The position numbers were made by a program, and so were the translations under genes. 54,505 nt of DNA from an uncultured Methanobrevibacter sp. Its GTDB lineage: Archaea > Methanobacteriota > Methanobacteria > Methanobacteriales > Methanobacteriaceae. The stretch's first letter is position 1; each line of letters begins with the position of its first letter. The notes beneath the pieces are model-generated. The model saw only the letters and a program-made list of their open reading frames with translations. It ran no database searches and was not told the DNA's origin. Of the stretch, positions 2,310 to 41,703 are shown one piece after another. Location of the stretch: positions 1 through 54,505 of the forward strand of contig CACWUH010000014.1 of the NCBI GenBank assembly GCA_902764015.1, given 5' to 3'.

Positions 2310-3029
2310 TTACCAATCAGTCTCATTGACTATTGCCAGTGCATTGAGGGTTCTTGGAAATCCGATATATGGCATGATGACAGTCATTGCTGAAATCAAC
2401 TTTTCTTTGTCATTTCCCACATTCAGATTGCCTTGGATGTGGCCTCTAAGCTGGTTTTCACAGCCGCCTAAAGTTGCGATGAACACAAAAGTAATCAGTT
2501 CCCTCTGCTGGTCGTCCAAGCCATCACGAGTGTAGAAATCACCAAAGCAGAAGCCCTCAAGAAATCTGTTGAAATGCTTCTGGCCTTCGGGAGTCTGATC
2601 GTTCATCATCTCAATCATTTCGGCTCCAAAGTATTTGTCCTGAAGCTCACGGCCCTTGACATGCCTGTTTTCAAGATGGGTGTTTGATCTGGTTGGAAGA
2701 GGCATTTCAATTCCTTTCTTTTCAAACACCTTGATTACTATGCCGAAGAAGTTGTGTGCACGGCCGAATCCAACATAGGGAACTGATTGGTAGAGCAGTT
2801 CCTTGACTTCTTCGGGAGTGATGTCCATATCCAGAGCAGAAAGCAGAATCTTTTTGAATGCCTTTGGAGATTGGCAGGCGATTAAGCTGGCCAATGTCAC
2901 CAAAATGGATTCCTTTTCTGACAAGGTTGAGTATTCAAAGACCTCTCCATAAGCAAAGTTTTCAAAAACTTCATGAAATTCCGGGTCGTTTTTCCGGATT
3001 CTTCCAAAATTAGTGAATAAATCTTTCAT
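2310..3029 (-). CDS. Carboxymuconolactone decarboxylase (CMD) family protein, two-domain
   Basis: This 239-residue protein consists of two all-helical CMD/AhpD-like repeats, roughly residues 30-115 and 145-235. Each has the helix pair ending in the conserved pattern VPYVGFGRAHN or MPYIGFPRTLN. The second repeat keeps a cysteine and a downstream histidine (GGCENQLRGH), while the first has a cysteine without the CxxxH histidine (ACQSPKAF), so a classical two-cysteine peroxidase relay is unlikely. Members of this family are annotated as decarboxylases or alkylhydroperoxidase-like, but most archaeal ones have no proven substrate. It lies upstream of the glutamate synthase-like gene on the same strand, which has a separate promoter. 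Start: ATG at 3029; no strong ribosome site is seen. Confidence 0.85.
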   Translation of the reverse strand: MKDLFTNFGRIRKNDPEFHEVFENFAYGEVFEYSTLSEKESILVTLASLIACQSPKAFKKILLSALDMDITPEEVKELLYQSVPYVGFGRAHNFFGIVIKVFEKKGIEMPLPTRSNTHLENRHVKGRELQDKYFGAEMIEMMNDQTPEGQKHFNRFLEGFCFGDFYTRDGLDDQQRELITFVFIATLGGCENQLRGHIQGNLNVGNDKEKLISAMTVIMPYIGFPRTLNALAIVNETDW

Positions 3030-3076
3030 GAATTAAAATATGAAAAATGAGCTATAAAAAATTTGTTAAAAGCAAA

Positions 3077-3271
3077 TTAAAGATTTGCTTTTAATTCATT
3101 AATTCTAGAGATAGACAAACCAGTTATCTCATGAACATACTTAACATCATGATTATCCCGTAAAAGATTACAAGCCACCTTTTCAGTAACCTGGTCAGTT
3201 ACTTTTTTTGCCTCATCCTCCCTAGCGAGTCTAATTATTCTATCTAATGCATTTTCATAATATTTGACCAT
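3077..3271 (-). pseudogene. Duplicated 3' fragment of the neighbouring Rpn-like gene
   Basis: The encoded ~65 residues (from the ATG at 3271) match the C-terminus of the adjacent gene almost residue for residue: ENALDR-IRLAREDEAKKVTD, NLLRDNHDV-YVHE and the identical ending GLSISRINELKANL. DNA identity begins at about 3073 and 3342 with the same AAATTAAAGATTTGC and runs about 200 bases. The copy has only one of the VTD/VTQ repeat units and no nuclease domain. It looks like a remnant of a tandem duplication or recombination, although a translated stand-alone C-terminal peptide cannot be excluded. Confidence 0.7.
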
Positions 3272-3346
3272 ACAAATCCCCAAGAAGTTTAAGCCATATT
3301 ACCTTTAATAGAATGATTGAAATACTTAAAAAAAATTAAAAACAAA

Positions 3347-4261
3347 TTAAAGATTTGCTTTTAATTCATTAATTCTAGAGATAGACAAACCAGTCATTTC
3401 ATGCACATAATCAACATCATGATTATCGCGTAAAAGATTACAAGCAAAATTTTCAGTAACCTGGTCAGTAACCTCCTGAGTAACCTTATCAGTAACCTCC
3501 TGAGTAACCTTATCAGTTACTTTTTTTGCCTCATCCTCCCTAGCAAGTCTGATTGTTCTATCCAATGCATTTTCACAATATTTAAGCACATTAATCGCCT
3601 CGAGTAGTTTTTCTTGTTCAAATTCGCTGTCAATATAGTGTTCGATGTTCAAATACATTGCAGGAATGATTCTGTTTTTCTCTTCTTCAGGAATGCAGTC
3701 ACATTCTTTAATGTATTCACAGATTTCTCGAACGTATTCCTCTTCCGTGATTGGAAGTTTAAACAACGGTAGATGAACCAGCAGTCCACAGTCCTTATGG
3801 TTCAGCTCAACTTGTTGTTTAAATTTGTCTCTCAACCTTTTTAAATATTTGCTTCCATCTATGTTTTTCAGTTCGATAACGAGTGGCTTGAAGCAAATGT
3901 TTTCATCAGTCGTTGCCCTTTTGAGATTGTTGCCTTCAGACAAGCATGCAATGATGAATTTTATGTTTTTTGAATAGTCACAGAAGGTATCTTGGAAATA
4001 AGTGTAATATCTGCCAAAATCAGGTTCCCTCAATATTTCAGTATGGCCTTCGATTATTACGATCTTACCTGATTTTGTCAAACCCCTGATATCTGTAAAC
4101 TTGTTTTCCAAATTCAGATTGATTATTTCTGTCGGCAAAAGCCTTATAATCTCTTCATTCTGACCAATGATTTCCAAAAAGATATTTCCATAGTTCAACT
4201 CAGAGATTTTAATATATTCATCACGATTTTTAATTTTCTTCAGGTTTTTAAAAGTCTTCAT
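3347..4261 (-). CDS. Rpn-like PD-(D/E)XK nuclease family protein
   Basis: About 304 residues from the ATG at 4261, which has GGAG 9 bases upstream; a GTG at 4285 is possible but less likely. The N-terminal half has a restriction-endonuclease-like pattern, FTDIRG followed by KIVIIEGHTEI, resembling the D...ExK/Q core of recombination-promoting (Rpn/YhgA-like) nucleases, though the E-x-K position is occupied by Gly-His and activity is uncertain. The middle is a charged helical segment. The C-terminus carries three 8-residue repeats (VTDKVTQE, VTDKVTQE, VTDQVTEN) followed by a helix-turn-helix-like tail (GLSISRINELKANL). Such genes are numerous in Methanobrevibacter and vary in copy and tail. 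A partial copy of the tail lies immediately downstream. Confidence 0.7.
   Translation of the reverse strand: MKTFKNLKKIKNRDEYIKISELNYGNIFLEIIGQNEEIIRLLPTEIINLNLENKFTDIRGLTKSGKIVIIEGHTEILREPDFGRYYTYFQDTFCDYSKNIKFIIACLSEGNNLKRATTDENICFKPLVIELKNIDGSKYLKRLRDKFKQQVELNHKDCGLLVHLPLFKLPITEEEYVREICEYIKECDCIPEEEKNRIIPAMYLNIEHYIDSEFEQEKLLEAINVLKYCENALDRTIRLAREDEAKKVTDKVTQEVTDKVTQEVTDQVTENFACNLLRDNHDVDYVHEMTGLSISRINELKANL
3466..3513 (-). repeat. Two exact 24-bp tandem repeats inside the Rpn-like gene
   Basis: Positions 3466-3489 and 3490-3513 are identical 24-mers that encode VTDKVTQE in frame; a degenerate third unit follows. Because the unit is a multiple of three, copy number can change without a frameshift, lengthening or shortening the coiled segment between the nuclease domain and the C-terminal tail. 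Confidence 0.85.
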
Positions 4262-4519
4262 AATATACATCTCCAATATTTCCACCGGTGAAAAGAATCA
4301 TTGGAACAATTAATGATTGTACTGACGAATATATAAAGGTTTCTCAGCTAAAAAAGCAATATTGACATCGCAATAGAAAAAAACAAGATGAAAACAATAT
4401 TGTTTTCAAAATAAAATATTTTTATCAAAAAAAATATTATAAATTATGCATTCGCCATCATATAATGACTCAACGTATGATTTGTATCCTAAGATACGTT
4501 CCATTTATATATTAAATTT

Positions 4520-30800: not shown

Positions 30801-32787
30801 CATCCTTGGAGACTGACTTTTTGACTTCATTGTCAACATTTGGGATGACCGTGAATGTTGTTGCATTTGCTATGGCCTTGTAGTAGGTATCCTCCTGATG
30901 CCTTGCTGAAACATAATATTTTCCAGGCTTCAGATTGTCCAGATTTACTGCAATTTCGCCCAGATAGCTTGTATGTCCGACTTCATTGTAAACAATGGTG
31001 CCGTCCTCATGCTGGATGGAAAGCAATACATTGATGTTGTACTCACGGCTGTCCTGGTACAGTTCTCCAGTATCAGTAGCGCCGGAGATAGGATATTCCC
31101 CATCTATCACTATATTGGCATTTCCGGCAGCATTGTATATCGCATTTGAAACCGCCAGATTGTCATAATCCGCAATGTTGTTTCCTCCAAAGAGAGTTAC
31201 GTTCACATGCTCTGTATCGCCGTAATATATGTCTTCGGCACGAACCGGCAACCAATAGACCCATGCCTGATTCTGATAGAGCTCATTATTTTCCAATGTG
31301 AGCTTTTCGCCTGACTCGTCGTAATAGATTGCACTGCCGTTTCTTGCGGTATTGAATCTGAAGGAATTGTACTTGATTAATGCCTGTGAGCTGTCAACAT
31401 AGATTGCACCACCCAGTCCGTCATCGATTTTGGCCGCATCAGGAATTGCCTCATTAGCTATGAATGAGGAATCCTCAATCAGAGTATTCTTGCCTTCGAT
31501 ATAGACCGCTCCACCGTCCATATTGGCAACGTTTGAATTGAAAACGGAATCTTTGATGGTAACATCCTCTGCACGGACATAGATGGCACCGCCCTTTTCA
31601 GTTACATTATTGTTCTTGAATTTTGAATCTTCAATCCTGATATTCAGACCGTTCGCCTGTATTGCACCTCCGTTTGGAGCCTCATTGCCATCGAAATTGC
31701 AGTCTATTACTGCCAATTCCATATAATCGTATAGCCATCCTGTTGAAAGCGCACCGCCATAGATGCTGGCGGAATTGTTTATGAATGTGCAGTTTTTGAT
31801 TTCACCGGATGCGTGGAATGTCAATGCACCTCCCTCATCGGCGAAGTTGTCAATGAAAAGGCAATTCAGATAGACTGTTCCATCTCTTACACAGCCCGCA
31901 CCACCATGGGAAGACTGTTCAGTACTGATTGCACTGTTGTTGCGAAATACACAGTTTATTACCTTTGCATTGGATCCCGGCTCATCCATACCGACCTGTA
32001 TCGCTCCTCCATAAGTCGATAGCTTTGACTTGACCCAGTTGTCTTCGAAGATACAGTTTCTAACTTCCGAATCCCTTCCGTAGACCCCCAGTGCTGCGCC
32101 ACGGGAGAACTCCTCCAAATCTTCATAATATCCGGAATTCCTTCTGAACTGGCAGTTGTCGACGATGGTTCCTGAAGCGGTGTCAAGATCGTATTTGGTA
32201 TTGAGAGCACTTCCCTTATTTGCATGATTGTCTTCGAATATGCAGTTTTCGATATGGACGTTCTTTGCATGAATGATTACGGCAGATCCAATCTCTGCCT
32301 CACCGTTTATGAATTTCAGATTTCTGAGCACAGTGCCTGCGCCATTTTCCATGATTAGAAATGCATATGACTGATGATCCCCGTCAAGCGTTGCACTGTC
32401 TTCTGCTGTTATCGTTAACTGCTTGTCTATTTGAATGCGGCCGTTGCCGTTTGAATGGTATGTTCCCTTCAAGAGAATGGTGTCTCCAGGATTGGCCGCA
32501 TTGACCTTTTCCTGGATGCTTGAGTATGTATTTCCGCTTGGAGTATGTACGGCTGTCAAATTATTTTGTGAATCCTGTGAATCCACCTCCAAAACATTGT
32601 TATCTTGAGAATTTTCTAGTTCAATTACATTATTGGATTCCAATCCTACTTCCACATCCGTATCATTTAAGTCTACGGCAAAGGAATCTTCAGCAGAAAA
32701 TCCTATTGCGGTAAACATCAAGCAAATGACACATAGGCAAAAGAGGAGATTTCTTCCAATAACCATCTTTCCATTATTTCTTAACAT
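27844..32787 (-). CDS. Adhesin-like surface protein: beta-helix plus eight DUF11 repeats
   Basis: 1647 residues. A signal peptide (about 1-37, LFCLCVICLMFTAIGFS) is followed by a right-handed beta-helix region (~75-510) built of recurring ENCIFEDN/GGAIYV/IKDSVFNSN turns. An Ig-like domain (about 560-650) and eight DUF11 repeats of about 118 residues then begin near 650, 769, 889, 1006, 1121, 1241, 1359 and 1476. Each repeat has the frame W-x-(I/V)-x-(I/V)-x-N-x-GPD and LP-(D/E)-G. The C-terminus ends in a Pro/Thr stretch, one membrane helix (AVLMICLMLSIAFWG) and KKK, an archaeal wall anchor. Such adhesin-like proteins mediate contact with hosts or partner microbes in gut methanogens. A GGTGAT ribosome site precedes the ATG. 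Confidence 0.93.
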   Translation of the reverse strand: MLRNNGKMVIGRNLLFCLCVICLMFTAIGFSAEDSFAVDLNDTDVEVGLESNNVIELENSQDNNVLEVDSQDSQNNLTAVHTPSGNTYSSIQEKVNAANPGDTILLKGTYHSNGNGRIQIDKQLTITAEDSATLDGDHQSYAFLIMENGAGTVLRNLKFINGEAEIGSAVIIHAKNVHIENCIFEDNHANKGSALNTKYDLDTASGTIVDNCQFRRNSGYYEDLEEFSRGAALGVYGRDSEVRNCIFEDNWVKSKLSTYGGAIQVGMDEPGSNAKVINCVFRNNSAISTEQSSHGGAGCVRDGTVYLNCLFIDNFADEGGALTFHASGEIKNCTFINNSASIYGGALSTGWLYDYMELAVIDCNFDGNEAPNGGAIQANGLNIRIEDSKFKNNNVTEKGGAIYVRAEDVTIKDSVFNSNVANMDGGAVYIEGKNTLIEDSSFIANEAIPDAAKIDDGLGGAIYVDSSQALIKYNSFRFNTARNGSAIYYDESGEKLTLENNELYQNQAWVYWLPVRAEDIYYGDTEHVNVTLFGGNNIADYDNLAVSNAIYNAAGNANIVIDGEYPISGATDTGELYQDSREYNINVLLSIQHEDGTIVYNEVGHTSYLGEIAVNLDNLKPGKYYVSARHQEDTYYKAIANATTFTVIPNVDNEVKKSVSKDVANFEDVVIWTVTVTNHGPNDSTNVTLVDVLPEGLILINTTANGKYNPETGILAIGDLKVGETFTFQMTTVVNATGTIVNEVNVTSNEFDKNMENNHAERELPVNPASDLAVVKSVSDVSPNYRDRIIWTIEISNNGPDTAHDVVMFDLLPKSLVYVDSNQDYSSDSGIWNVGTLKKGEKVAISIVCIVNGTGMIENMVSVNASEFDYDETNNNDSERIFVDPSSDLAIVKTVNASRVNYNDLVKWILEISNSGPDIAKNVRVVDMLPDGFTYVDSILAKGNYSDDVFTIDSIGVGETVTVEILTLVEATGNFINYANVTSDNYDFDLTNNEDEEPIHVNPASDLSVAKSVSDSNPDFGDIVTWTVEVINNGPDVAHNVTVSDLLPDALVWIGDDSLGDYDPISGILFIDELDVEESFVLNIECLVNATGLIQNIVSVNATEYDYNLTNNVANETIDVEKAADVSITKLVNNSSPNYNDLVKWALVISNNGPDKATDIYVEDQLPEGMVLINYTATKGFYDNGIWGMCCLENGELQTLEIICRVNRTGRIMNLATIQANEHDYNESNNKDNESVDVPLAVDLQALIQVSNNEPLFGDEVTWMISVRNNGPDNATEVILEDILPDGLVLTGYGSVNGIYEDDVWDIGSLDTGDVVYLNITTVSDKLGEIINSVKATSREYDWNMSNNHDDDSINVRPIADLAIEKSVDNPNAKYGELVRWTLTVSNNGPNAANNVVVRDVLPKGLEFVKSNGDYSNNIWKISRLGVGESKSIVIICRVSKTGDFRNVAEVWADELDLDKSNNRAEKSIHVAPTSDLSVTKRVSKSHYRVGDVIEYVIEVVNNGPDAARNVKVSEILDDLLKLKSFKANQGRFNRFTNIWTIANLANGQSAKLIIKVVATGEGMVRNTVRVTSDTFDYDKSNNKDSVIVNVTEKPLNDVSNPSGDEFDGNVIKSVPEIHPTANPIAVLMICLMLSIAFWGKGISKKK

Positions 32788-33253
32788 TTTTAAATCACCT
32801 AACTTGAGGACGATTATAAATACTATTAATTAACAAAAAGCTATTAACTAGCGATTGACCTTTTTATTTTTAGGTTTGGACCTGAAAACGATGATTCACA
32901 TGTCAAATTTGAAAAACAACATTTGATCAGTAGGAAAATTATTAGATAACTCCCTATCACAAAGCATTTTCAAGACAAATGACCTGCCAGACTTCAACGT
33001 TGATTTCAATCTGACAATCAAAATCAAGATTTATCAAATCAAAGCAATATTTACCTTAAAATAAAAGATAATCTTTCTAAATCCTCAAAATACCTATTAA
33101 ACTGATTAGTATTTAAAACTAACTGTATAAAGAAAGCAAAATTGTTTTTAGAGTGAAAAATTACATGTTAAGGTCAATATTGATATTAGTGGGAAAAATA
33201 TTTTATTGATGAAGTTAATAGTAATATATAATTAATAATCAAGGTAAAGAGAG
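32788..33253. other. Divergent intergenic region between the two surface-protein genes
   Basis: 466 bases of A/T-rich sequence separating divergently transcribed surface genes. TATA-like stretches for the adhesin lie at about 32814-32834. No open frame with a ribosome site is seen. A long spacer like this could hold surface-gene regulatory sites, but I see no clear dyad. Confidence 0.5.
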
Positions 33254-34387
33254 ATGAAAAGACAAATAGCCATACTGATTATGGCCATACTGATATTGGC
33301 TCCACTCATACAGGACGTGACTGCGGCAAAAACCGTTTTCATAACATCAGACAATATCATAGACCATGACAGTGACGTAAAACTAATGAACTCTTTAAAA
33401 AGTTACATTGAAGAATTGAGCGGAGGAGAACTACAGGTAATCGTTGACAACCAGGCCCCCGCAGCAGGAGAGGGATGGCGGTCAATAGAGGTGACAAGCG
33501 ATGTTAGTGTGGATCTGGCCGCATCGGATGCTGGAAACTTTCTGCAGCTGGCTACTTCCACAATAAATTCAGACAAGCAGATAGTGTTTGTCAATATAGG
33601 CGATTATGATTTGGACAACCATACAAACTTCCTTAGAAGAGCATGGGACGACAATTATTCGAATGAAACTCTGGCAGGAATGCATGACCCTGGAACATTC
33701 CTTAAAAATGCCGGAATTTTCTATGTCCAGCCTGCAAAGGAATTCCCGAATAATGTTCATGACGGCGTCATATCCAACTACGATGAGGAAATGAACAAGC
33801 AGATGGCGCAGGAAATTGTAGATATCATCAACACAAATGGAAAAACTGAAAAGACATTAAGCGATGGATTGGTCACTCACAATATAATCAAACCATCCAT
33901 AATGGCTAAAGCAAGTCAGGAACTGATAAAAAGCAACGATAAGGAGATGAAGGGAACATACGGCAATTATACCGGCCCTCAACTTTTATATCAAACAAGC
34001 TCATATCTGAATGGAAACGGATTGGACATTCCAAAATCCTATGAGGAACCTGAAAACCCAATGGGCATTTCATTAATGGTGAAAGACACCTATTCCATCT
34101 ATGACTATTTCAAAATGGGAGGAATAGTCAGAGAATATATGGATGCAAACGGAAGAGCCCCTGACTCCATAGAATATGAAGGAGCGCAAATCAGCTACTA
34201 TGATTTACTGTACAACTTTGCAAAGATAACCCAGACCCATACTGATGCCAAACACATGAGCTTTGAAAGCGAATATCACTTCGATAAAGTTAACGATTCA
34301 ATATTGCTACAGATATTCCCATTCATTTTAATATTGTTCATACTTTTCGTAGCATATTTATTGTTTAAGCGAATAAGGAGATACTAA
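33254..34387 (+). CDS. Secreted, membrane-anchored protein with pseudomurein-binding-like segment
   Basis: 377 residues: signal peptide (AILIMAILILAPLIQDVTA), a large extracellular part with several Asn-X-Ser/Thr sites, a segment resembling pseudomurein-binding repeats (YMDANGRAPDSIEYEGAQIS followed by YYDLLYNFAKIT) near residues 295-330, then one C-terminal membrane helix (ILLQIFPFILILFILFVAYL) and a basic tail. The topology is type I, the bulk facing the pseudomurein wall. The catalytic role, if any, is unknown; the N-terminal half (TVFITSDNIIDHDSDVKLMN) matches a Methanobacteriales family I cannot name. Ribosome site AGAGAG precedes the ATG. Confidence 0.78.
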   Translation: MKRQIAILIMAILILAPLIQDVTAAKTVFITSDNIIDHDSDVKLMNSLKSYIEELSGGELQVIVDNQAPAAGEGWRSIEVTSDVSVDLAASDAGNFLQLATSTINSDKQIVFVNIGDYDLDNHTNFLRRAWDDNYSNETLAGMHDPGTFLKNAGIFYVQPAKEFPNNVHDGVISNYDEEMNKQMAQEIVDIINTNGKTEKTLSDGLVTHNIIKPSIMAKASQELIKSNDKEMKGTYGNYTGPQLLYQTSSYLNGNGLDIPKSYEEPENPMGISLMVKDTYSIYDYFKMGGIVREYMDANGRAPDSIEYEGAQISYYDLLYNFAKITQTHTDAKHMSFESEYHFDKVNDSILLQIFPFILILFILFVAYLLFKRIRRY

Positions 34388-34411
34388 TAAAAATTACATA
34401 GAGGAAAAATT

Positions 34412-35095
34412 ATGAAGAAATATATTGCAGAATTAATAGGAACGATGGTACTTGTTCTATTTGGTTGTGGAAGTGCGGCCATAGCCGGATCAATGTTGGG
34501 CAATCTAGGAATTGCACTGGCATTCGGTTTGTCAATTGTAGCTATGGCTTACGTAATAGGAGACATCTCAGGATGTCACATCAACCCTGCCGTTTCAATA
34601 GGCATGTGGATTGATGGAAGAATGGAATCAAAAGACCTTGTGATGTACATCATATTCCAGTGCATCGGCGCAATAATCGGAATTGCACTATTGGCGGCAA
34701 TCATCAGCTCCGCTCCAAGCCTTGGAGGATATGCAACAACAGGTCTTGGACAGAACGGATTCGGCTCTGCATCAAGTGTCGGACTTGATGTTGTAGGAGC
34801 AATAATCGTTGAAGTTATCTTAACCTTTGTATTCGTATTCACAGTTCTTGGAGTTACTAAAAAGGCTGAAAACGGTGCCGTTGCAGGTATCGTAATTGGT
34901 TTAACACTTGCATTCGTGCACATCATGGGAATTCCATTGACCGGTACTTCAGTAAACCCTGCACGTAGTTTAGCACCAGCTCTTTTCCTTGGCGGGCAAG
35001 CATTACAACAAGTTTGGGTATTTATCCTAGCCCCAATAGTCGGTGCAGTCATCGCAGGATTCCTATACAAAGGGCTAACCTCAGAGGATGTTTAA
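34412..35095 (+). CDS. aqpM: Aquaporin (MIP family)
   Basis: 227 residues with six membrane helices and both half-helix motifs: GCHINPAVSIG after TM2 and TSVNPARSLAP after TM5. The start KKYIAELIGTMVLVLFGCGS is the MIP consensus. Methanobacteriales AqpM conducts water and, to a lesser extent, glycerol and small gases. Start after GAGGAAAA. The stop codon lies in the loop of a terminator hairpin. Confidence 0.95.
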   Translation: MKKYIAELIGTMVLVLFGCGSAAIAGSMLGNLGIALAFGLSIVAMAYVIGDISGCHINPAVSIGMWIDGRMESKDLVMYIIFQCIGAIIGIALLAAIISSAPSLGGYATTGLGQNGFGSASSVGLDVVGAIIVEVILTFVFVFTVLGVTKKAENGAVAGIVIGLTLAFVHIMGIPLTGTSVNPARSLAPALFLGGQALQQVWVFILAPIVGAVIAGFLYKGLTSEDV

Positions 35096-35118
35096 ATCCT
35101 CTATCTTTTTCTTTTTTT
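35083..35118 (+). terminator. Terminator overlapping the aquaporin stop codon
   Basis: AGAGGAT (35083-35089) and ATCCTCT (35096-35102) form a 7-bp stem with loop GTTTAA, followed by ATC and T-runs (TTTTTC TTTTTTT). The stop codon TAA lies within the loop. Confidence 0.75.
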
Positions 35119-35226
35119 AAATATTTTTAAGCAACATTAACCAATTTCTTATTTTGAACCTGAGAGACCGAACCTTATTAAGATTTAAATAATATCTTGA
35201 AGATAAATATAACATAAGGTGAATAT

Positions 35227-35904
35227 ATGAAAATTGTTGTTGCAATTGGAGGATCAATTTTACTTAAGGAATATGATTGTAAAAAATTCCAGGAATACAG
35301 TGCTATTTTAAAAGACCTCTCACAGGAACATGAATTATTTGTTGTTGTAGGTGGTGGAAAACCTGCAAGAGAATATATCAGTGTAGTTCGTGACTTGGGA
35401 GCTGGAGAGGCACAATGTGACGATATCGGAATTGAAGTTACAAGAATAAACGCAAAATTAATGCTTTCAGCACTTGGCGATGCGGCCTATCAGAGGGTGC
35501 CGCACAATTTCCAGGAAGCTTTGGAATTCTCAGCCACCGGAAAAATAATCGTAATGGGCGGAACCGAACCTGCACACAGTACCGATGCAGTCTCAGCAAT
35601 ACTTGCGGAATACATCCAGGCAGACAAGCTCATCAACCTGACATCCGTCGATGGAATGTACACCAAAGACCCTAACAAGTTTGACGATGCTGAGCTTGTA
35701 AGCGAAATCACCGCAACAGACCTGCTTGAATTTTTAAGCGGCAAGGACGTGAAGGCAGGAACCTATGAATTCTTCGACACAACCGCAGTCCAGATGATTA
35801 AAAGGTCAAACCTTGAAACCGTCATCACCAACGGATTCGAGCCGGAAAACCTTATCAAGGCCGTCAACGGAGAAGACATAGGAACAAGAGTAATCAATGA
35901 ATAG
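35227..35904 (+). CDS. pyrH: UMP kinase (archaeal type)
   Basis: 225 residues with the amino-acid kinase fold: [11 protein letters not shown] at the N-terminus, [13 protein letters not shown], the nucleotide-binding [20 protein letters not shown] and [14 protein letters not shown]. It phosphorylates UMP to UDP. It begins about 130 bases after aquaporin with a TATA-like stretch (AGATTTAAATAATA) and AAGGTGAAT ribosome site. The following TatD gene starts 8 bases after its stop. Confidence 0.95.
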
Positions 35905-35912
35905 GTGATTAA

Positions 35913-36701
35913 GTGGACAATCTTGTCGATATCGGACTGAACCTGATGCACAAATCCTTTAGAAAGGACCGTGTCGAAATCATAGAGGAAGCAAAGAAGG
36001 TTGGCGTCAAGCAGTTCATCATTACCGGAACAAATGTGCATTCAAGCCAGATGGCTGCCGAATATGCATCAAAATATCCTGGAACCCTGTTTTCAACATC
36101 TGGAGTGCATCCCCATGATGCCAAAACATGCAACGGCCATACTATGTTTGAGCTTGAAAAAATCGCTAAAAACGATTGTGTAGTGGCCATCGGAGAATGC
36201 GGCCTTGACTACAACAGAAACTTCTCGCCGCAGGATCTGCAGAGAAAATGGTTTGAGGCACAGGTGGAAGTTGCCGAAAGAACCGACATGCCACTATTTT
36301 TACATGAAAGAGAAGCCCACAAGGATTTATATGATATCCTGAAAAGGCACGACAGCGTGGTTGAAAGGTCAGTTGTCCACTGCTTTACCGGAACCAAGCA
36401 GGAAGCTCAAAATTATGTTGACTTGGGCTGCTTTATCGGAGTTACCGGATGGATTTGTGACATGAAAAGGGGAAGAGACCTGCAGGAGGCAGTAAGTGCA
36501 ATACCTCCTGAAAAATTGATGATTGAAACGGACGCCCCCTTCCTGATACCAAAAAACTTTGACGTTAAGCCTAAAAGGAACCGAAATGAACCTAAATATT
36601 TACCTCATATCCTCGAAACAATTGCCCTATGTATGGGAATTGATGCGGAGGAGCTTGCAAATCAAGTTAATAAAAATACAAAAGAATTTTTCAAAATATA
36701 A
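35913..36701 (+). CDS. TatD family hydrolase
   Basis: 262 residues from a GTG start (35913) with TAGGTGATTAA upstream. The canonical TatD pattern is present in order: IGLNLMHKSF, SGVHPHDA, VAIGECGLDYNRNFSPQD, LFLHEREAH, VVHCFTGTKQEA and the terminal LMIETDAPFL. N-terminal metal ligands are atypical (GLNL where TFDTHxH is common, though Asn/Leu variants occur in TatD subfamilies), which may reduce or alter metal binding. Probably a DNase or deoxyribonucleoside-processing enzyme. Co-transcribed with pyrH. Confidence 0.92.
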   Translation: MDNLVDIGLNLMHKSFRKDRVEIIEEAKKVGVKQFIITGTNVHSSQMAAEYASKYPGTLFSTSGVHPHDAKTCNGHTMFELEKIAKNDCVVAIGECGLDYNRNFSPQDLQRKWFEAQVEVAERTDMPLFLHEREAHKDLYDILKRHDSVVERSVVHCFTGTKQEAQNYVDLGCFIGVTGWICDMKRGRDLQEAVSAIPPEKLMIETDAPFLIPKNFDVKPKRNRNEPKYLPHILETIALCMGIDAEELANQVNKNTKEFFKI

Positions 36702-36912: not shown

Positions 36913-37236
36913 ATGATTTTTACATCCTCAAATACTCTAGAAAATAAGGAAGTCATCGAATATAAGGGATTGGTTACCGGAGAATCCTTGATTGGCTCCA
37001 ACATCTACAAGGACATATTTTCAGGCGTCCGTGATGTTGTGGGCGGAAGGACAACACAATATGAAGCGGAACTAGAAAAGGCCCGTGACATTGCATTCGA
37101 AAGCATGAAGGAAAAGGCCGAAAGCCTTGGTGCAAATGCAATCATCGGACTCAAGATTTCATATGACAATCTGGGCGGCACCATGGGAAACACCATTCTC
37201 GTAACCGCCTACGGCACTGCGATAAGATATGAGTAA
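36913..37236 (+). CDS. YbjQ/UPF0145 family protein
   Basis: 107 residues. Features are [19 protein letters not shown], a central [20 protein letters not shown] segment and C-terminal [19 protein letters not shown], all YbjQ hallmarks. The family forms a pentameric beta-sandwich ring; it is often called heavy-metal-binding, but the function is not proven. It is followed directly by a membrane protein with a related C-terminal domain. Confidence 0.9.
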
Positions 37237-37238
37237 GT

Positions 37239-38105
37239 ATGAAAATCAAAGATAAAGAGATAGATTTTATATATGCCGGAAAAACCATCCTCTGCATAGG
37301 AGCGGGAACCGCTGCAGGCCTTGCAGTCTATGGAGTATTCCTGTACTTCCATATTGCAATCTTCGGATGGAATCTGGGACTGATTTTTGCACCTCTGAGC
37401 GCAGGATATGTGGAGACAATACTTTCCAACAGGTTTCTGGGCAAAAACTTTGGTGCAGTCAGCGCATTCATCCTTTTCGTTTACACCACATTCTACAGCT
37501 TCATCCTGAAGAATCCGACTTTGGGAATGAACCTCATAACTGCCGGTTCCATCATTGTCATCCTGCAGTCCGCATTTCCGACGCTGGTGAACTATCTTCT
37601 TATGGTGTTTCTCGGCGGGCTTGCATCAAGCATCATATGGATTTTCAAAAAGATCAAATCATCGTTTAAAACTGCCAAATCCCACATCCGATGGGAAACG
37701 AAAGAAGAAGAGGAAGATTCCGAACCGATTATTTATTTTAATGAGGATGAAAGCAATAAAAAGCTGAACTCTATGGATTTCTTCTTTTTGACAAGCACAG
37801 ACATGTGTGGGCGAGACCATGACCTGCTTGGACTCTATCAAAGCGAAATAATTATACATAACAAGGAAACCATAAGCGTCAAGCGTGATGAGGTAGAGCA
37901 CAAACGTTTGGTTAGCATCAAGCAAGGAAAGGACGACTGCTTAACCAAGCTGGCCGAAAAGGTCAAGGCAGACGGCGGAAATTGCATATTGGATTTGGAC
38001 ATCCGATATGGATTGATTGGACTGGGAGGAGACAACATCCATATAATCGCCATAGGCGTGGCAATCAATATGAAAGACAAATCAAACATTGTGGGAAGGA
38101 GATAA
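37239..38105 (+). CDS. Membrane protein with C-terminal YbjQ-like domain
   Basis: 288 residues. The N-terminal ~125 hold about four membrane helices (TILCIGAGTAAGLAVYGVFL and AFILFVYTTFYSFILKN among them). An acidic linker leads to a C-terminal soluble part (NSMDFFFLTSTDMCGRDHD to IIAIGVAINMKD). Its ILDLDIRYGLIGLGGDNIHI echoes the YbjQ ending [14 protein letters not shown] of the previous gene, so it is probably a diverged YbjQ domain fused to membrane helices. It starts 2 bases after the YbjQ stop. Function unknown. Confidence 0.72.
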   Translation: MKIKDKEIDFIYAGKTILCIGAGTAAGLAVYGVFLYFHIAIFGWNLGLIFAPLSAGYVETILSNRFLGKNFGAVSAFILFVYTTFYSFILKNPTLGMNLITAGSIIVILQSAFPTLVNYLLMVFLGGLASSIIWIFKKIKSSFKTAKSHIRWETKEEEEDSEPIIYFNEDESNKKLNSMDFFFLTSTDMCGRDHDLLGLYQSEIIIHNKETISVKRDEVEHKRLVSIKQGKDDCLTKLAEKVKADGGNCILDLDIRYGLIGLGGDNIHIIAIGVAINMKDKSNIVGRR

Positions 38106-38106
38106 C

Positions 38107-38310
38107 ATGGAAAACGAAGGAACAATCATAATACCAATCATCGGGTACATCATTGCAGTGATTTCCCCGATAATCGGCCTATTGTACGGTGCTGTACTGG
38201 TCTTTTTCAAAAAGGACACTGCATTGTACCAAAAACACGGAAGATTCATAATATATTTTGCAATAGTTCTCTTCATCATAGATTTGATACTGAGATTCGT
38301 CATCAAATAG
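38107..38310 (+). CDS. Small membrane protein, two helices
   Basis: 67 residues from ATG 38107 (GAAGGAGATAAC upstream; an earlier in-frame ATG at 38089 has no ribosome site). Two hydrophobic segments (IIIPIIGYIIAVISPIIGLL and FIIYFAIVLFIIDLILRF) flank a short charged loop (FFKKDTALYQKHGR). Last gene of the DUF2116-YbjQ-YbjQ/TM run, one base after the previous stop. No family recognised. Confidence 0.75.
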   Translation: MENEGTIIIPIIGYIIAVISPIIGLLYGAVLVFFKKDTALYQKHGRFIIYFAIVLFIIDLILRFVIK

Positions 38311-38384: not shown

Positions 38385-38418
38385 TGCCATCACCTCAAAT
38401 AACTTAAGTCAGATGGCA
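38385..38418 (+). promoter_or_regulatory. Hairpin in the leader of the nucleotidyltransferase-RNA ligase operon
   Basis: TGCCATC (38385-38391) and GATGGCA (38412-38418) form a 7-bp stem with a 20-base loop, about 65 bases before the ATG at 38483. A smaller TCGG/CCGA hairpin follows at 38435-38449. Together they suggest a structured leader, or a DNA dyad for a regulator, in front of the RNA-ligase cassette. Confidence 0.4.
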
Positions 38419-38482
38419 TCAGAATATCCAAGAATCGGTTTGAATCCGAATGATGCCGAAAAGAAAAAAGGAAGGTGAAAAG

Positions 38483-39271
38483 ATGAAGACCGTTGAAAAA
38501 GAAATGTTTGAATATGTCAACAGACAACTCGATAAAATCGAAGAAGAGCATGGCATCGAGATTTTATACTGTGTCGAAGCGGGCAGTCGTGGTTGGGGCT
38601 TTTCAAATGAGGACTCTGATTATGATGTTAGATTCATCTTTAAAAGACCTTTGAACGATTATTTCGCAATCAACTCCAAAAAGGACACAATCGACTACTT
38701 CGATGGAGATCTGGACTTTGTCGGTTGGGACATCAGAAAGGCACTCCACCTGCATTGGAAAAGCAATCCCAACCTGAGGGAATGGACAAAGCAGAAAATC
38801 GTCTACAGGGGAGATTGCAAATTTCTGGACAACCTGCCGGCATTCAGTCCGGTCACCCTTAAATATCATTACGGAAGCCTCGCCTACAACAACTGGAAGA
38901 GATATGTCGTGGGCCAAGACAATGAAATGACAAAAAAGGTGACCAAAAGATACATGTATGCAATCAGATGCATTCTTGCATGGATTTTGATTGATGATGG
39001 AAAGGATGCGCCGATTGAAATCGATGAGCTCATGAAATGCTTCATCGATGATGACCGCATCGCTACACGCCTATATGCCGACATATTAATGTTCATAAGT
39101 TACTACAAAAGCAATTGCCGAAAAAGCAAACCTGACGAAAGGGCAATTGAAAACGTGACCACTTTCATCAATGCATACATTGAAATCATGAAGGCAGACA
39201 AACCGAAAATGGAAGATTTGAGCGATATTGAAATATACAACACAAGATTCAGAGAAATTGTAATGAAATAA
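38483..39271 (+). CDS. Nucleotidyltransferase superfamily protein (COG3541/YcgL-like)
   Basis: 262 residues from ATG 38483, chosen because AAGGTGAAAAG precedes it. The minimal nucleotidyltransferase motif is complete: G34-S35-R-G-W-G followed by D46-x-D48 (GSRGWGFSNEDSDYDVRFIF); a further acidic site lies in the DLDFVGWDIRKAL stretch. The C-terminal half is helical (KRYMYAIRCILAWILI). The family corresponds to predicted nucleotidyltransferases found in bacteria, archaea and phages. It starts 14 bases before an RNA ligase, so it may add nucleotides to RNA ends before ligation. Substrate not determined. Confidence 0.82.
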   Translation: MKTVEKEMFEYVNRQLDKIEEEHGIEILYCVEAGSRGWGFSNEDSDYDVRFIFKRPLNDYFAINSKKDTIDYFDGDLDFVGWDIRKALHLHWKSNPNLREWTKQKIVYRGDCKFLDNLPAFSPVTLKYHYGSLAYNNWKRYVVGQDNEMTKKVTKRYMYAIRCILAWILIDDGKDAPIEIDELMKCFIDDDRIATRLYADILMFISYYKSNCRKSKPDERAIENVTTFINAYIEIMKADKPKMEDLSDIEIYNTRFREIVMK

Positions 39272-39285
39272 CAGAGGTGAAAACC

Positions 39286-40485
39286 ATGATTATTGACGGG
39301 AAACGTTCCCTTGCCCATGTGGAAAGGATCTCATGGGTAAAGCCGATTGAGGGCGCCGACAACATCGAGCTCATCGGCGTTCTTGGATGGAACTGCATTG
39401 CAAAAATCGGGGAATTCGAAAAGGGCGACCTCTGCGTATACATTGAAATCGACTCGAAGGTTCCCGAAAAGGAATGGTCCGAGTTTTTAAGGGCAAAACA
39501 CTTTAAAATCAAAACCATGAAACTTTCAAAGTTCAATGTTATCTCACAGGGCATAGCCTTGCCGATTGGCATTTTCGATGTTGAGATTCCCCAAAAGGAA
39601 GGTGCTGACGTGACTGAACTGCTTGAAATCAAATACTCAAACCCCGCTGATGCAAAGCGCAAAAGTGAAGGGTTTGATAAGTATGAAGTGATGGTTCAGC
39701 ACCACAAGGAACTCTTTGAAAAGTCCTGGGCGAAATGGCTGATGAAAAGGGATTGGGGTAAAAGGCTGATGTTCTTCTTATTCGGAGACGAAAACGATAA
39801 GAGCAAACGCTTCCCAACCAAATTCCCATACATCTCAAAAACCGACCAGGAACGCTGCGAGAACATGCCGGACATCCTCAAAGACAAGACCCCATACGTC
39901 CGCACCCAAAAGTGTGACGGATCATCCGCCACATACATCCTTGAAAAGGTTAACTCGCATCCTATCAAGAAGGAATACGAGTTTTACGTATGCTCACGCA
40001 ACCTTCGCATCTTCAAGGAGGAGGATCCATTGGTTGAGGATAAAAACCCTTACTGGGAAATGGCCGTAAAATACGATATCGAAAACAAGCTCAAGGATTA
40101 CCTTGAGAATCACAAGGACTGCAGCCATGTCTGCTGGCAAGGTGAAATCTGCGGTCCGAAAATTCAGGGAAATCCTCATAAGCTAGCGGAAAATCATCTG
40201 TTCTGCTTCCATATGATTGACAACAACAAAAAGTTTGATATTCGTGAGGCCAAAAAGATATGGGACGAATACGGAATGGAAAGTGTTCCGATTGACGATA
40301 AGGAATACATCCTTCCCGATGACTTTGAAGAGTTCAAGCAGACGGCAGACGGATACTACTCGGCGGACGTGTGTGACGGACAGACAAAATGCGCCATGGA
40401 AGGCTGGGTATACTACAAAACGACTGAACCAGGATTCAGTTTCAAGAACATCTCCCGCAAATACTTGCTTAAAAGAGGAGAATGA
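39286..40485 (+). CDS. RNA ligase, Rnl5/DraRnl-like
   Basis: 399 residues from ATG 39286 (AGAGGTGAAAA upstream). An N-terminal OB-like domain (LAHVERISWVKPIEGADNIE, IGEFEKGDLCVYIEIDSKVP) precedes a nucleotidyltransferase domain with motif I TQKCDGSSATYI; the adenylated lysine would be Lys209. Downstream are the CWQGEICGPKIQG and C-terminal KCAMEGWVYYKT segments, the latter resembling motif V. An OB domain before the ligase domain is the arrangement described for DraRnl of Deinococcus, which seals nicked RNA in duplexes. Paired with a nucleotidyltransferase; together a candidate RNA-repair cassette. Confidence 0.88.
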   Translation: MIIDGKRSLAHVERISWVKPIEGADNIELIGVLGWNCIAKIGEFEKGDLCVYIEIDSKVPEKEWSEFLRAKHFKIKTMKLSKFNVISQGIALPIGIFDVEIPQKEGADVTELLEIKYSNPADAKRKSEGFDKYEVMVQHHKELFEKSWAKWLMKRDWGKRLMFFLFGDENDKSKRFPTKFPYISKTDQERCENMPDILKDKTPYVRTQKCDGSSATYILEKVNSHPIKKEYEFYVCSRNLRIFKEEDPLVEDKNPYWEMAVKYDIENKLKDYLENHKDCSHVCWQGEICGPKIQGNPHKLAENHLFCFHMIDNNKKFDIREAKKIWDEYGMESVPIDDKEYILPDDFEEFKQTADGYYSADVCDGQTKCAMEGWVYYKTTEPGFSFKNISRKYLLKRGE

Positions 40486-40515: not shown

Positions 40516-40875
40516 TTAATTAATCTCATCTAATCTTTTTTTGAACCCATCATTATTTTTACAGTTAGCGATAGCTTTTTTTAAAATTTCCTTTTCACCA
40601 TCAACATCATTCTGCTTTTGATATATGCCGGCTAGCGCTTCATAAGCTTTCTGGGAATCCGGCAAAACAAAAATCACCTGTTTATATAATTCGGAAGCTT
40701 CATCCAAGTTGCCTTTATCCTCCAAGTATTTTGCCTCATTCATCAAATCAGATATTTTTTTGAATTTACCTTCCGTTTTAGGCATAGTTTTTCCTTCGAC
40801 ATTTTTCAGTCTGTCAAATATGTCTTGTGCAGTCTTTTCATCAAAATTTTCTCCAACTTTTCTCTCTTCACTCAT
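40516..40875 (-). CDS. Small TPR protein
   Basis: 119 residues. Two TPR units are clear: LMNEAKYLEDKGNLDEASELYKQV and AYEALAGIYQKQNDVDGEKEIL; a charged N-terminal segment (EERKVGENFDEKTAQDIFDR) precedes them. Soluble, no catalytic residues. It starts 9 bases after the stop of the TSUP permease gene, in the same transcript, so it may assist that permease or a related process. Confidence 0.8.
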   Translation of the reverse strand: MSEERKVGENFDEKTAQDIFDRLKNVEGKTMPKTEGKFKKISDLMNEAKYLEDKGNLDEASELYKQVIFVLPDSQKAYEALAGIYQKQNDVDGEKEILKKAIANCKNNDGFKKRLDEIN

Positions 40876-40884
40876 GTTATCACC

Positions 40885-41703
40885 TTAAGGCAGAATTCCA
40901 AGCATCTTCAATGCCATGTACAGTACCAATATTGAAAATATGATCTTTAATTTCTTTTGAGGAACCTTATGGGCAAATTTGGCTCCCAAAGAAGCCATAG
41001 GGACTGAGAAACAGGCAATCAAAAGGAAGTTGATGATGCTGACATAACCTATGGAATATGGAAATGTGCTTACGCCCCATCCGGAAACCATATATGACAG
41101 AAAACCGCCGACGGCAGTCAGGCAAATGAATATGGATGATGTCCCTATTGCCTCTATCATTGAAAATCCCAGAAGAGCGGTCAGAATAGCTATCAGAAAT
41201 ATTCCGCCACCAACGCCCAGAAGACCTGACGAAAATCCGACCAGAAGTCCGATGATTCCTGCCGTTACCCAATTGAACGGTATTCTGGCTTCTTCCCTTT
41301 CCTTGTTGATGTTGACTATGTTGTTGACCGTAATGAACAGCAATAAAAGCCCAAATGTTATCTCCAATACTCTTGAAGGAAGCATTGAAGCGGTGAACCC
41401 GCCTATAATTCCTCCGATTACTCCGAAGATGCCCAATCGGATTCCGGGCTCAAGAATATTGTCCATGGTTCTGGTGTGCCGGTATGCTCCGCTCAGGGAT
41501 GTCGGAATGATGATGGCCAGACTGGTTCCAAATGATATTAATATGGCCAAATCCGGCTCGACTCCAATGTATTTCAAAAGAAAGAACTGGAGAGGCACAA
41601 TCAGAAATCCTCCGCCAACGCCCAAAAGGCCGGATGCAAAACCAGCACAAATACCAATGAGCATCAGCCCTATGTAATATTCTATCGGAAACATAAACAT
41701 CAT
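40885..41703 (-). CDS. TSUP family permease (TauE/SafE type)
   Basis: 272 residues in two similar halves with about eight membrane helices. Each half carries the glycine-rich motif GFASGLLGVGGGFLIVP or GFSSGLLGVGGGIFLIA, the family hallmark. TSUP proteins export or import sulfur-containing or organic anions (sulfite, sulfoacetate, thiosulfate). The substrate is not predictable. The start (41703) is ATG-ATG with no ribosome site; ATG 41694 is an alternative, and a leaderless message is likely given the 33-base gap to the divergent gene. Confidence 0.88.
   Translation of the reverse strand: MMFMFPIEYYIGLMLIGICAGFASGLLGVGGGFLIVPLQFFLLKYIGVEPDLAILISFGTSLAIIIPTSLSGAYRHTRTMDNILEPGIRLGIFGVIGGIIGGFTASMLPSRVLEITFGLLLLFITVNNIVNINKEREEARIPFNWVTAGIIGLLVGFSSGLLGVGGGIFLIAILTALLGFSMIEAIGTSSIFICLTAVGGFLSYMVSGWGVSTFPYSIGYVSIINFLLIACFSVPMASLGAKFAHKVPQKKLKIIFSILVLYMALKMLGILP

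Follow-up and report, generated by a model that had tools for sequence, protein, structure and literature searches.

Nucleotidyltransferases of the RlaP family have been described in jumbo phages, where they work with RNA ligases and are predicted to replace missing nucleotides before the ends are joined; the jumbo-phage ligases are mostly Rnl1 or Rnl2, and ATP-dependent ligases require 5'-phosphate and 3'-OH ends (PMC7824862). Relatives of RlaP also occur in a Hen1-Pnkp-RlaP operon in Enterococcus and in an RtcR-slipin-RlaP operon in Citrobacter, and because of this context an RNA-repair role of RlaP is well supported. Of three individual records, NZ_CP081847.1 (L082) has RlaP in a Hen1-Pnkp operon, NZ_CP151862.1 (L083) has it in an RtcR-slipin operon, and in NZ_AP021845.1 (L084) it lies within a type I-like restriction locus that also encodes a YhcG nuclease. 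Since a joint role of the family and RNA ligases has already been described for jumbo phages (PMC7824862), the idea of the pairing is known, and the parts of the locus reported here are ordinary, being known families in a predicted pairing of a known kind. New are the archaeal setting and the link to tRNA arrays and to CARF-HEPN RNases. The stretch of 54,505 nucleotides analysed here (the window) belongs to contig C14 of genome G000, a Methanobrevibacter assembly from metagenome data (1.98 Mb, 84% complete). Our reading of the locus, given with moderate confidence, is that it is a cassette for RNA repair in the chromosome of a rumen Methanobrevibacter. The RNA repaired would most likely be tRNA, and the cassette probably descends from viruses.

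The initial annotation described two genes separated by 14 bases, and this spacing was confirmed exactly with ATG starts at 38483 and 39286 (Table 1). Both open reading frames are intact and lie on the same strand, each behind a strong Shine-Dalgarno sequence (at 38470-38478 for rlaP, whose best start is the ATG at 38483), and the ligase stops at 40485. The flanks consist of ordinary chromosomal genes, no virion genes were found in them, and the left flank is syntenic in G051, G035, G060, G013, G040, G046, G043 and G042. Neither rlaP nor the ligase was matched by PADLOC. No kinase, phosphatase or cyclic phosphodiesterase was found in the cassette, and Pnkp (polynucleotide kinase-phosphatase) was absent from the locus and its flanks, the genome-wide AAA_33 matches being non-specific.

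Table 1. Features of the cassette and its surroundings, in positions of the window
Feature	Coordinates	Strand	Description
Left flank, outside the cassette	36913..38310	+	YbjQ, 288-aa protein, small membrane protein; synteny
tRNA-like remnant in leader	38415..38457	+	Acceptor-like 7-bp stem around T-arm
rlaP	38483..39271	+	RlaP-family Pol-beta nucleotidyltransferase, 262 aa; stop 39269-39271; alternative start 38450 upstream
Intergenic spacer	39272..39285	+	14 bases; ligase Shine-Dalgarno AGAGGTG, begins 39273
Ligase	39286..40485	+	Rnl5-type ATP-dependent RNA ligase, 399 aa; best start ATG 39286; alternative GTG start 39277
Right flank, conserved	40516..41703	-	TPR protein 40516-40875, TauE/SafE exporter 40885-41703

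The product of gene 1 matched the Pfam family RlaP (PF10127) with 162.3 bits and an E value of 2.1e-47 (curated cut-off 23 bits). It had been annotated as a minimal nucleotidyltransferase with GSRGWG and D46xD48; the motifs are as stated, but the protein belongs to this recognised family and is not an unnamed one. Among 19 RlaP proteins, G34, S35, D48 and D78 of the active site (GS...DxD...third Asp) were invariant and D46 nearly so, and G34 S35, D46, D48 and D78 are kept in archaeal, phage and plasmid members. The PDB contained no sequence relative of RlaP, and the predicted structure was poor (pLDDT 46). Template-independent addition of nucleotides at RNA 3' ends is predicted for RlaP in the literature (PMC7824862). 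Three further RlaP genes lie elsewhere in the window's genome. Numerous additional paralogs of RlaP in the genus stand without a ligase, and RlaP paralogs are also paired with other genes, for low-molecular-weight (LMW) phosphatases, HEAT proteins and HNH. The paralogs at L041:5249-6904, L037:5270-6907 and L047:4960-6724 share a conserved operon with two LMW phosphatase genes (PF01451), and these phosphatases are candidate RNA 3'-end phosphatases. In several species (L038:5599-6913, L097, L100, L101) a paralog was observed immediately 3' of a gene for a basic HNH-endonuclease protein.

Gene 2 is, judged from its sequence, an Rnl5-type RNA ligase carrying an additional helical insert, and it is predicted to seal nicks. 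Pfam placed PF21189 (PHA02142 OB) at residues 12-97 and PF09414 at residues 206-390 (GTG-started numbering), and the architecture comprises an OB domain at about 9-95, a helical insert at about 120-170 and a nucleotidyltransferase domain from about 200. Lys209 occupies the nucleophile position in KCDGSS (ATG numbering). In 18 ligases K209, G212, S237, E287, E372, G373 and K387 (motifs I, Ia, III, IV, V) were invariant, while D211, R238 and N239 were kept in most. The best solved relative by sequence was the Naegleria gruberi RNA ligase (NgrRnl; E 1e-21, 26% identity), which also came top in the fold search (E 2e-21) with a predicted model whose mean pLDDT was only 70. The N-terminal OB domain and Lys209 in KCDGSS are as the initial annotation gave them. 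On the RNA_lig_DRB0094 equivalog model (TIGR02306) the ligase scored 91.9 bits, below the 151-bit cut-off, so that it is Rnl5-type and related to DraRnl and no equivalog. A divergent PF21189-type ligase was seen in G012 and G016 (L033:6913-8211, L090:6406-7704), with many small same-strand genes around it; this region may be proviral, and a tmRNA-like call there is putative.

All copies of the two genes, 8 of the ligase and 6 of rlaP, are open and strongly constrained by purifying selection, and are therefore not there by chance; the pairwise dN/dS was 0.03-0.09 for rlaP and 0.03-0.17 for the ligase, in pairs with unsaturated dS. In-frame stops flagged in G040, G059 and G060 were only alignment-edge artefacts, and the genes are open.

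In the leader, the initial annotation had placed a hairpin (38385-38418), the arms of which lie at 38385-38391 and 38412-38418. The letters TGCCATC/GATGGCA are present, but G051, the closest relative, has lost the 5' arm, and the hairpin does not appear in the minimum-energy fold; on both grounds it was rejected as a conserved regulatory element. Its 3' arm overlaps the 5' strand of another pairing, GGCATCA (38415-38421) with TGATGCC (38451-38457), and this second pairing is kept in G051. Inside this acceptor-like stem lies a T-arm, TCGG-TTTGAAT-CCGA (38435-38449), with the D-arm and the anticodon arm missing, and the fold of acceptor and T-arm has -12.3 kcal/mol (z -1.9). Rfam gave no match for the leader, the tRNA model RF00005 being silent at E up to 10, and ARAGORN called no tRNA at the site. 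The element is best described as a remnant or tRNA-like element, not as a tRNA gene. It was found only in G000 and G051 among 139 family genomes and ends 25 nt before the rlaP start codon; an intact tRNA-Leu(CAG) in G035 ends at the same distance 5' of rlaP, and a tRNA or tRNA-like sequence lies immediately upstream in four related genomes. When the remnant was aligned with the G035 tRNA-Leu(CAG), none of 2000 shuffles did as well; it is likely tRNA-derived, and its parent is uncertain because some other tRNAs align about equally, for which reason a definite tRNA-Leu relic was dropped. In a more speculative and unlikely reading, the remnant might even act as a tRNA mimic that lets the repair operon sense damaged tRNAs or the enzymes that it encodes. 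A second degenerate tRNA-like element (GATAATG ... GTGGG-TTCGAAT-CCCAC ... CATTATC) was observed in G035 at L003:5011-5070, upstream of the intact tRNA-Leu(CAG) before rlaP.

Of 152 genomes from the phylum, 12 had the OB domain used as the marker of the ligase and 26 had RlaP. Strict adjacency of rlaP and the ligase was limited to four Methanobrevibacter genomes (G000, G051, G035 and G060), at one locus between the YbjQ and TPR/TauE flanks. The same locus has rlaP only in G046 and G043 and the ligase only in G013 and G040, and in G059 the contig stops just upstream of the ligase. The ligase adjoins tRNAs without RlaP in G003, at a different site about 100 nt after the end of an 11-tRNA array, and in G090 and G099, which belong to another genus. 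In the databases searched the two genes were more often apart than adjacent, and on plasmids RlaP (26 records) and the ligase (10 records) did not overlap among the matches listed. RlaP was present in 8 of 10 ligase genomes versus 10 of 57 others (p 2e-4, a statistic that ignores kinship). The recurrent linkage raised by the initial annotation was only partly upheld: the genes co-occur above expectation, but adjacency is confined to one syntenic locus in four genomes, and in other genomes either gene can be missing from that locus.

Whole-genome tRNA counts were 52 in G000, 77 in G003 and 66 in G035, with 33 in the complete control G002. Ligase carriers had a median of 42.5 tRNAs versus 32 in the others (Mann-Whitney p 1e-4; 67 genomes, kinship ignored), and the ligase was found in six of the eight genomes with at least 42 tRNAs (Fisher p 5e-5; 67 genomes, kinship ignored); most of the effect comes from one clade. 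The presence of RlaP by itself showed no correlation with tRNA number in the 67 genomes (p 0.16-0.17). In the window's genome, contig C18 (L091) carries 16 tandem tRNAs at 2934-4499, for nearly as many amino acids. A CARF-HEPN RNase gene (TIGR02710, Csm6-like) is located at 5721-7010 of L091, 1.2 kb from this array, and a 227-aa protein is also encoded beside the array; the arrangement of array and CARF-HEPN gene is the same in G051 (L146). The homologue of the C18 protein (70% identical) is encoded directly beside the cassette in G035 and G059. G042, which has the same locus without the cassette, holds the CARF-HEPN gene and an identical tRNA-Leu(CAG). The gene lies just inside the right flank in G035, G059 and G042; no CARF-HEPN gene adjoins the cassette in the window. 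Thg1 is a 5'-end tRNA polymerase, and its gene was observed near arrays in G051 (L146:5263-6033, Pfam-confirmed), with a Thg1-like sequence in G035 (L144:15333-16094). A second array, mostly of Leu, Ser and Thr tRNAs, lies by permease-like genes in at least three genomes (L143:8144-9503 in G000 contig C5, L145:7774-8890 in G035 contig C21, and L151 in G051 contig C81) and complements the first. The tRNA arrays of Methanobrevibacter have already been published, including that of RUG344 (our G035) with identical coordinates (32563-36039; Morgado and Vicente 2019, PMC6333295); in its main text that paper mentions neither RNA repair nor any CRISPR gene, RNA ligase or nucleotidyltransferase.

Both genes are carried by the phages HPP-Temi and BRkr, on the same strand and 5-7 kb apart. 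Six viral contigs held a near-full-length relative of the ligase, and one of them holds both genes, about 103 kb apart; a scan of the viral_contigs set for RlaP gave no match. In the ligase tree the viral contigs adjoin the archaeal clade, with L008 as its sister. On the six viral contigs whose ligases are the nearest viral ones, the tRNA counts are 7, 27, 13, 8, 1 and 15 (the 1 is doubtful, and most, not all, bases were scanned), that is, 7-27 each in five of the six. The tree points to a likely viral origin of the ligase, with host and direction as suppositions. The pair had been called reminiscent of phage and bacterial RNA-repair systems, and with relatives found in viruses this interpretation was right in kind. 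As a whole, the earlier reading as an RNA-repair nucleotidyltransferase with an Rnl5-like ligase stood and its hairpin did not, and it had overlooked three things: the leader with its tRNA-like element, the tRNA arrays and, in relatives, the adjoining CARF-HEPN RNase gene.

From these results we infer the enzymatic activities, a tRNA substrate, the joint action of both enzymes and a damaging RNase. In the proposed mechanism, tRNAs would be cut by ribonucleases, for example by HEPN or anticodon nucleases belonging to a defence system or a mobile element. RlaP would then re-add lost nucleotides at the 3' end of the broken RNA. The ligase, after adenylylating itself on Lys209, would activate the 5'-phosphate and join it to the 3'-OH. 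HEPN-type RNases leave ends other than 5'-phosphate and 3'-OH, unlike the ends that the ligase requires, so that an end-healing enzyme would be needed; 2',3'-cyclic-phosphate and 5'-OH ends would call for another enzyme, and none was found in the cassette. That this enzyme is missing from the cassette is the weakest point of the tRNA-repair explanation, and the separate loss of each gene, the adjacency in one clade and the ligase-free RlaP paralogs also count against it, as do the weight of one clade in the tRNA-count association and the lack of a correlation between RlaP alone and tRNA number. A HEPN RNase is plausible as the damaging agent because the HEPN domains of Cas13a cut tRNA anticodon loops (PMC11042736); that TIGR02710 proteins would cut tRNAs is a supposition.

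Two independently useful RNA enzymes could also be neighbours by chance, that is, an Rnl5 ligase that seals RNA nicks in general, like those of Deinococcus or Naegleria, beside an RlaP with its own role, the two forming no single cassette. We regard this as doubtful, though it is the rival that we take most seriously: each gene was lost separately at the same locus, the ligase stands alone by tRNAs in G003 and in G090/G099, and RlaP paralogs have the partners named above (LMW phosphatases, HEAT proteins, HNH). However, the 14-base spacing with its own Shine-Dalgarno sequence in the window, the adjacency retained in four species despite high dS, and the co-occurrence in 8 of 10 versus 10 of 57 genomes (p 2e-4, kinship ignored) argue against chance. 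Alternatively, the pair could be a leftover from a virus or an integrated element that has survived by chance and has no function today. This would agree with the viral position of the nearest relatives beyond the archaeal clade in the tree, with the degenerate leader tRNA and with the patchy presence; it is improbable, since 8 of 8 ligases and 6 of 6 RlaPs are open under strong purifying selection and the flanks are ordinary chromosomal ones without virion genes.

The remaining alternatives concern one enzyme each. RlaP might be an MntA-like adenylyltransferase antitoxin against a HEPN toxin and not add nucleotides to RNA ends, as its weak similarity to MntA_antitoxin (E 0.036) and the adjoining CARF-HEPN RNase gene in relatives would allow. 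We hold this to be quite improbable, in view of 14 bits for MntA (cut-off 60) versus 162 bits for RlaP, of the relatives in Hen1-Pnkp and RtcR RNA-repair operons, and of the window cassette, which has no adjoining HEPN gene. The ligase might make circular or spliced RNAs instead of repairing them, like the archaeal Rnl3-type ligase of Thermococcus; C/D box sRNAs are circularised by an ATP-dependent RNA ligase in archaea (PMC9014305). But the Thermococcus ligase is of a different family and its structures came far below NgrRnl in the fold search, and the sporadic occurrence of our ligase (12 of 152 genomes) fits a housekeeping task poorly, which makes this the least probable of the rivals and a very improbable one.

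Returning to tRNA repair, the placement of the pair, at a site where a close relative has a tRNA gene and with spare tRNA sets in the genomes, suggests a virus-style kit for surviving tRNA-cutting enzymes. In one archaeal lineage, spare sets of tRNAs, enzymes that repair RNA ends and a CARF-HEPN RNase come together, and tRNA-rich viruses have matching ligases; this conjunction allows a direct test of the idea that tRNA arrays serve as defence insurance. A wider and tentative proposal, unlikely as it stands, is that some rumen Methanobrevibacter have a dispersed tRNA-insurance system, in which the spare array tRNAs, RlaP, the Rnl5 ligase and Thg1-like enzymes would be linked to CARF-HEPN RNases cleaving tRNAs in antiviral signalling; if it is true, the cell would be able to recover after its own antiviral defence. 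Two open questions are touched here: the recovery of cells from immunity based on their own RNases, and the reason for redundant tRNA arrays in some prokaryotes.

Compared with known systems, the locus resembles RlaP systems, described in jumbo phages, in its match to the family (E 2e-47), its GS...DxD...D site and its neighbouring ATP-dependent RNA ligase, to which the family name refers, and differs in its archaeal chromosome, its Rnl5-type partner and the lack of a kinase or phosphatase neighbour. RtcR-regulated and Hen1-Pnkp operons likewise contain RlaP in Citrobacter and Enterococcus, whereas their Hen1, Pnkp, RtcA, RtcB and RtcR were not found in the Methanobrevibacter locus. With the Rnl5 ligases DraRnl (Deinococcus) and NgrRnl (Naegleria) our ligase shares the N-terminal OB domain, the C-terminal adenylyltransferase domain and motifs I, Ia, III, IV and V, but NgrRnl, at 26% identity, is without the helical insert of about 50 residues between the domains. 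The T4-type repair against anticodon nucleases (Pnkp and Rnl1) is similar in its presumed purpose, the restoring of tRNAs cut by defence RNases, and the viral relatives here are tRNA-rich; unlike it, the cassette has a different ligase family, an extra nucleotidyltransferase and no end-healing kinase. Furthermore, the archaeal and viral tRNA gene clusters described earlier (PMC6333295) share RUG344 with our set, and the mycobacterial tRNA array units (PMC5966550, PMC12803027) are related known tRNA clusters.
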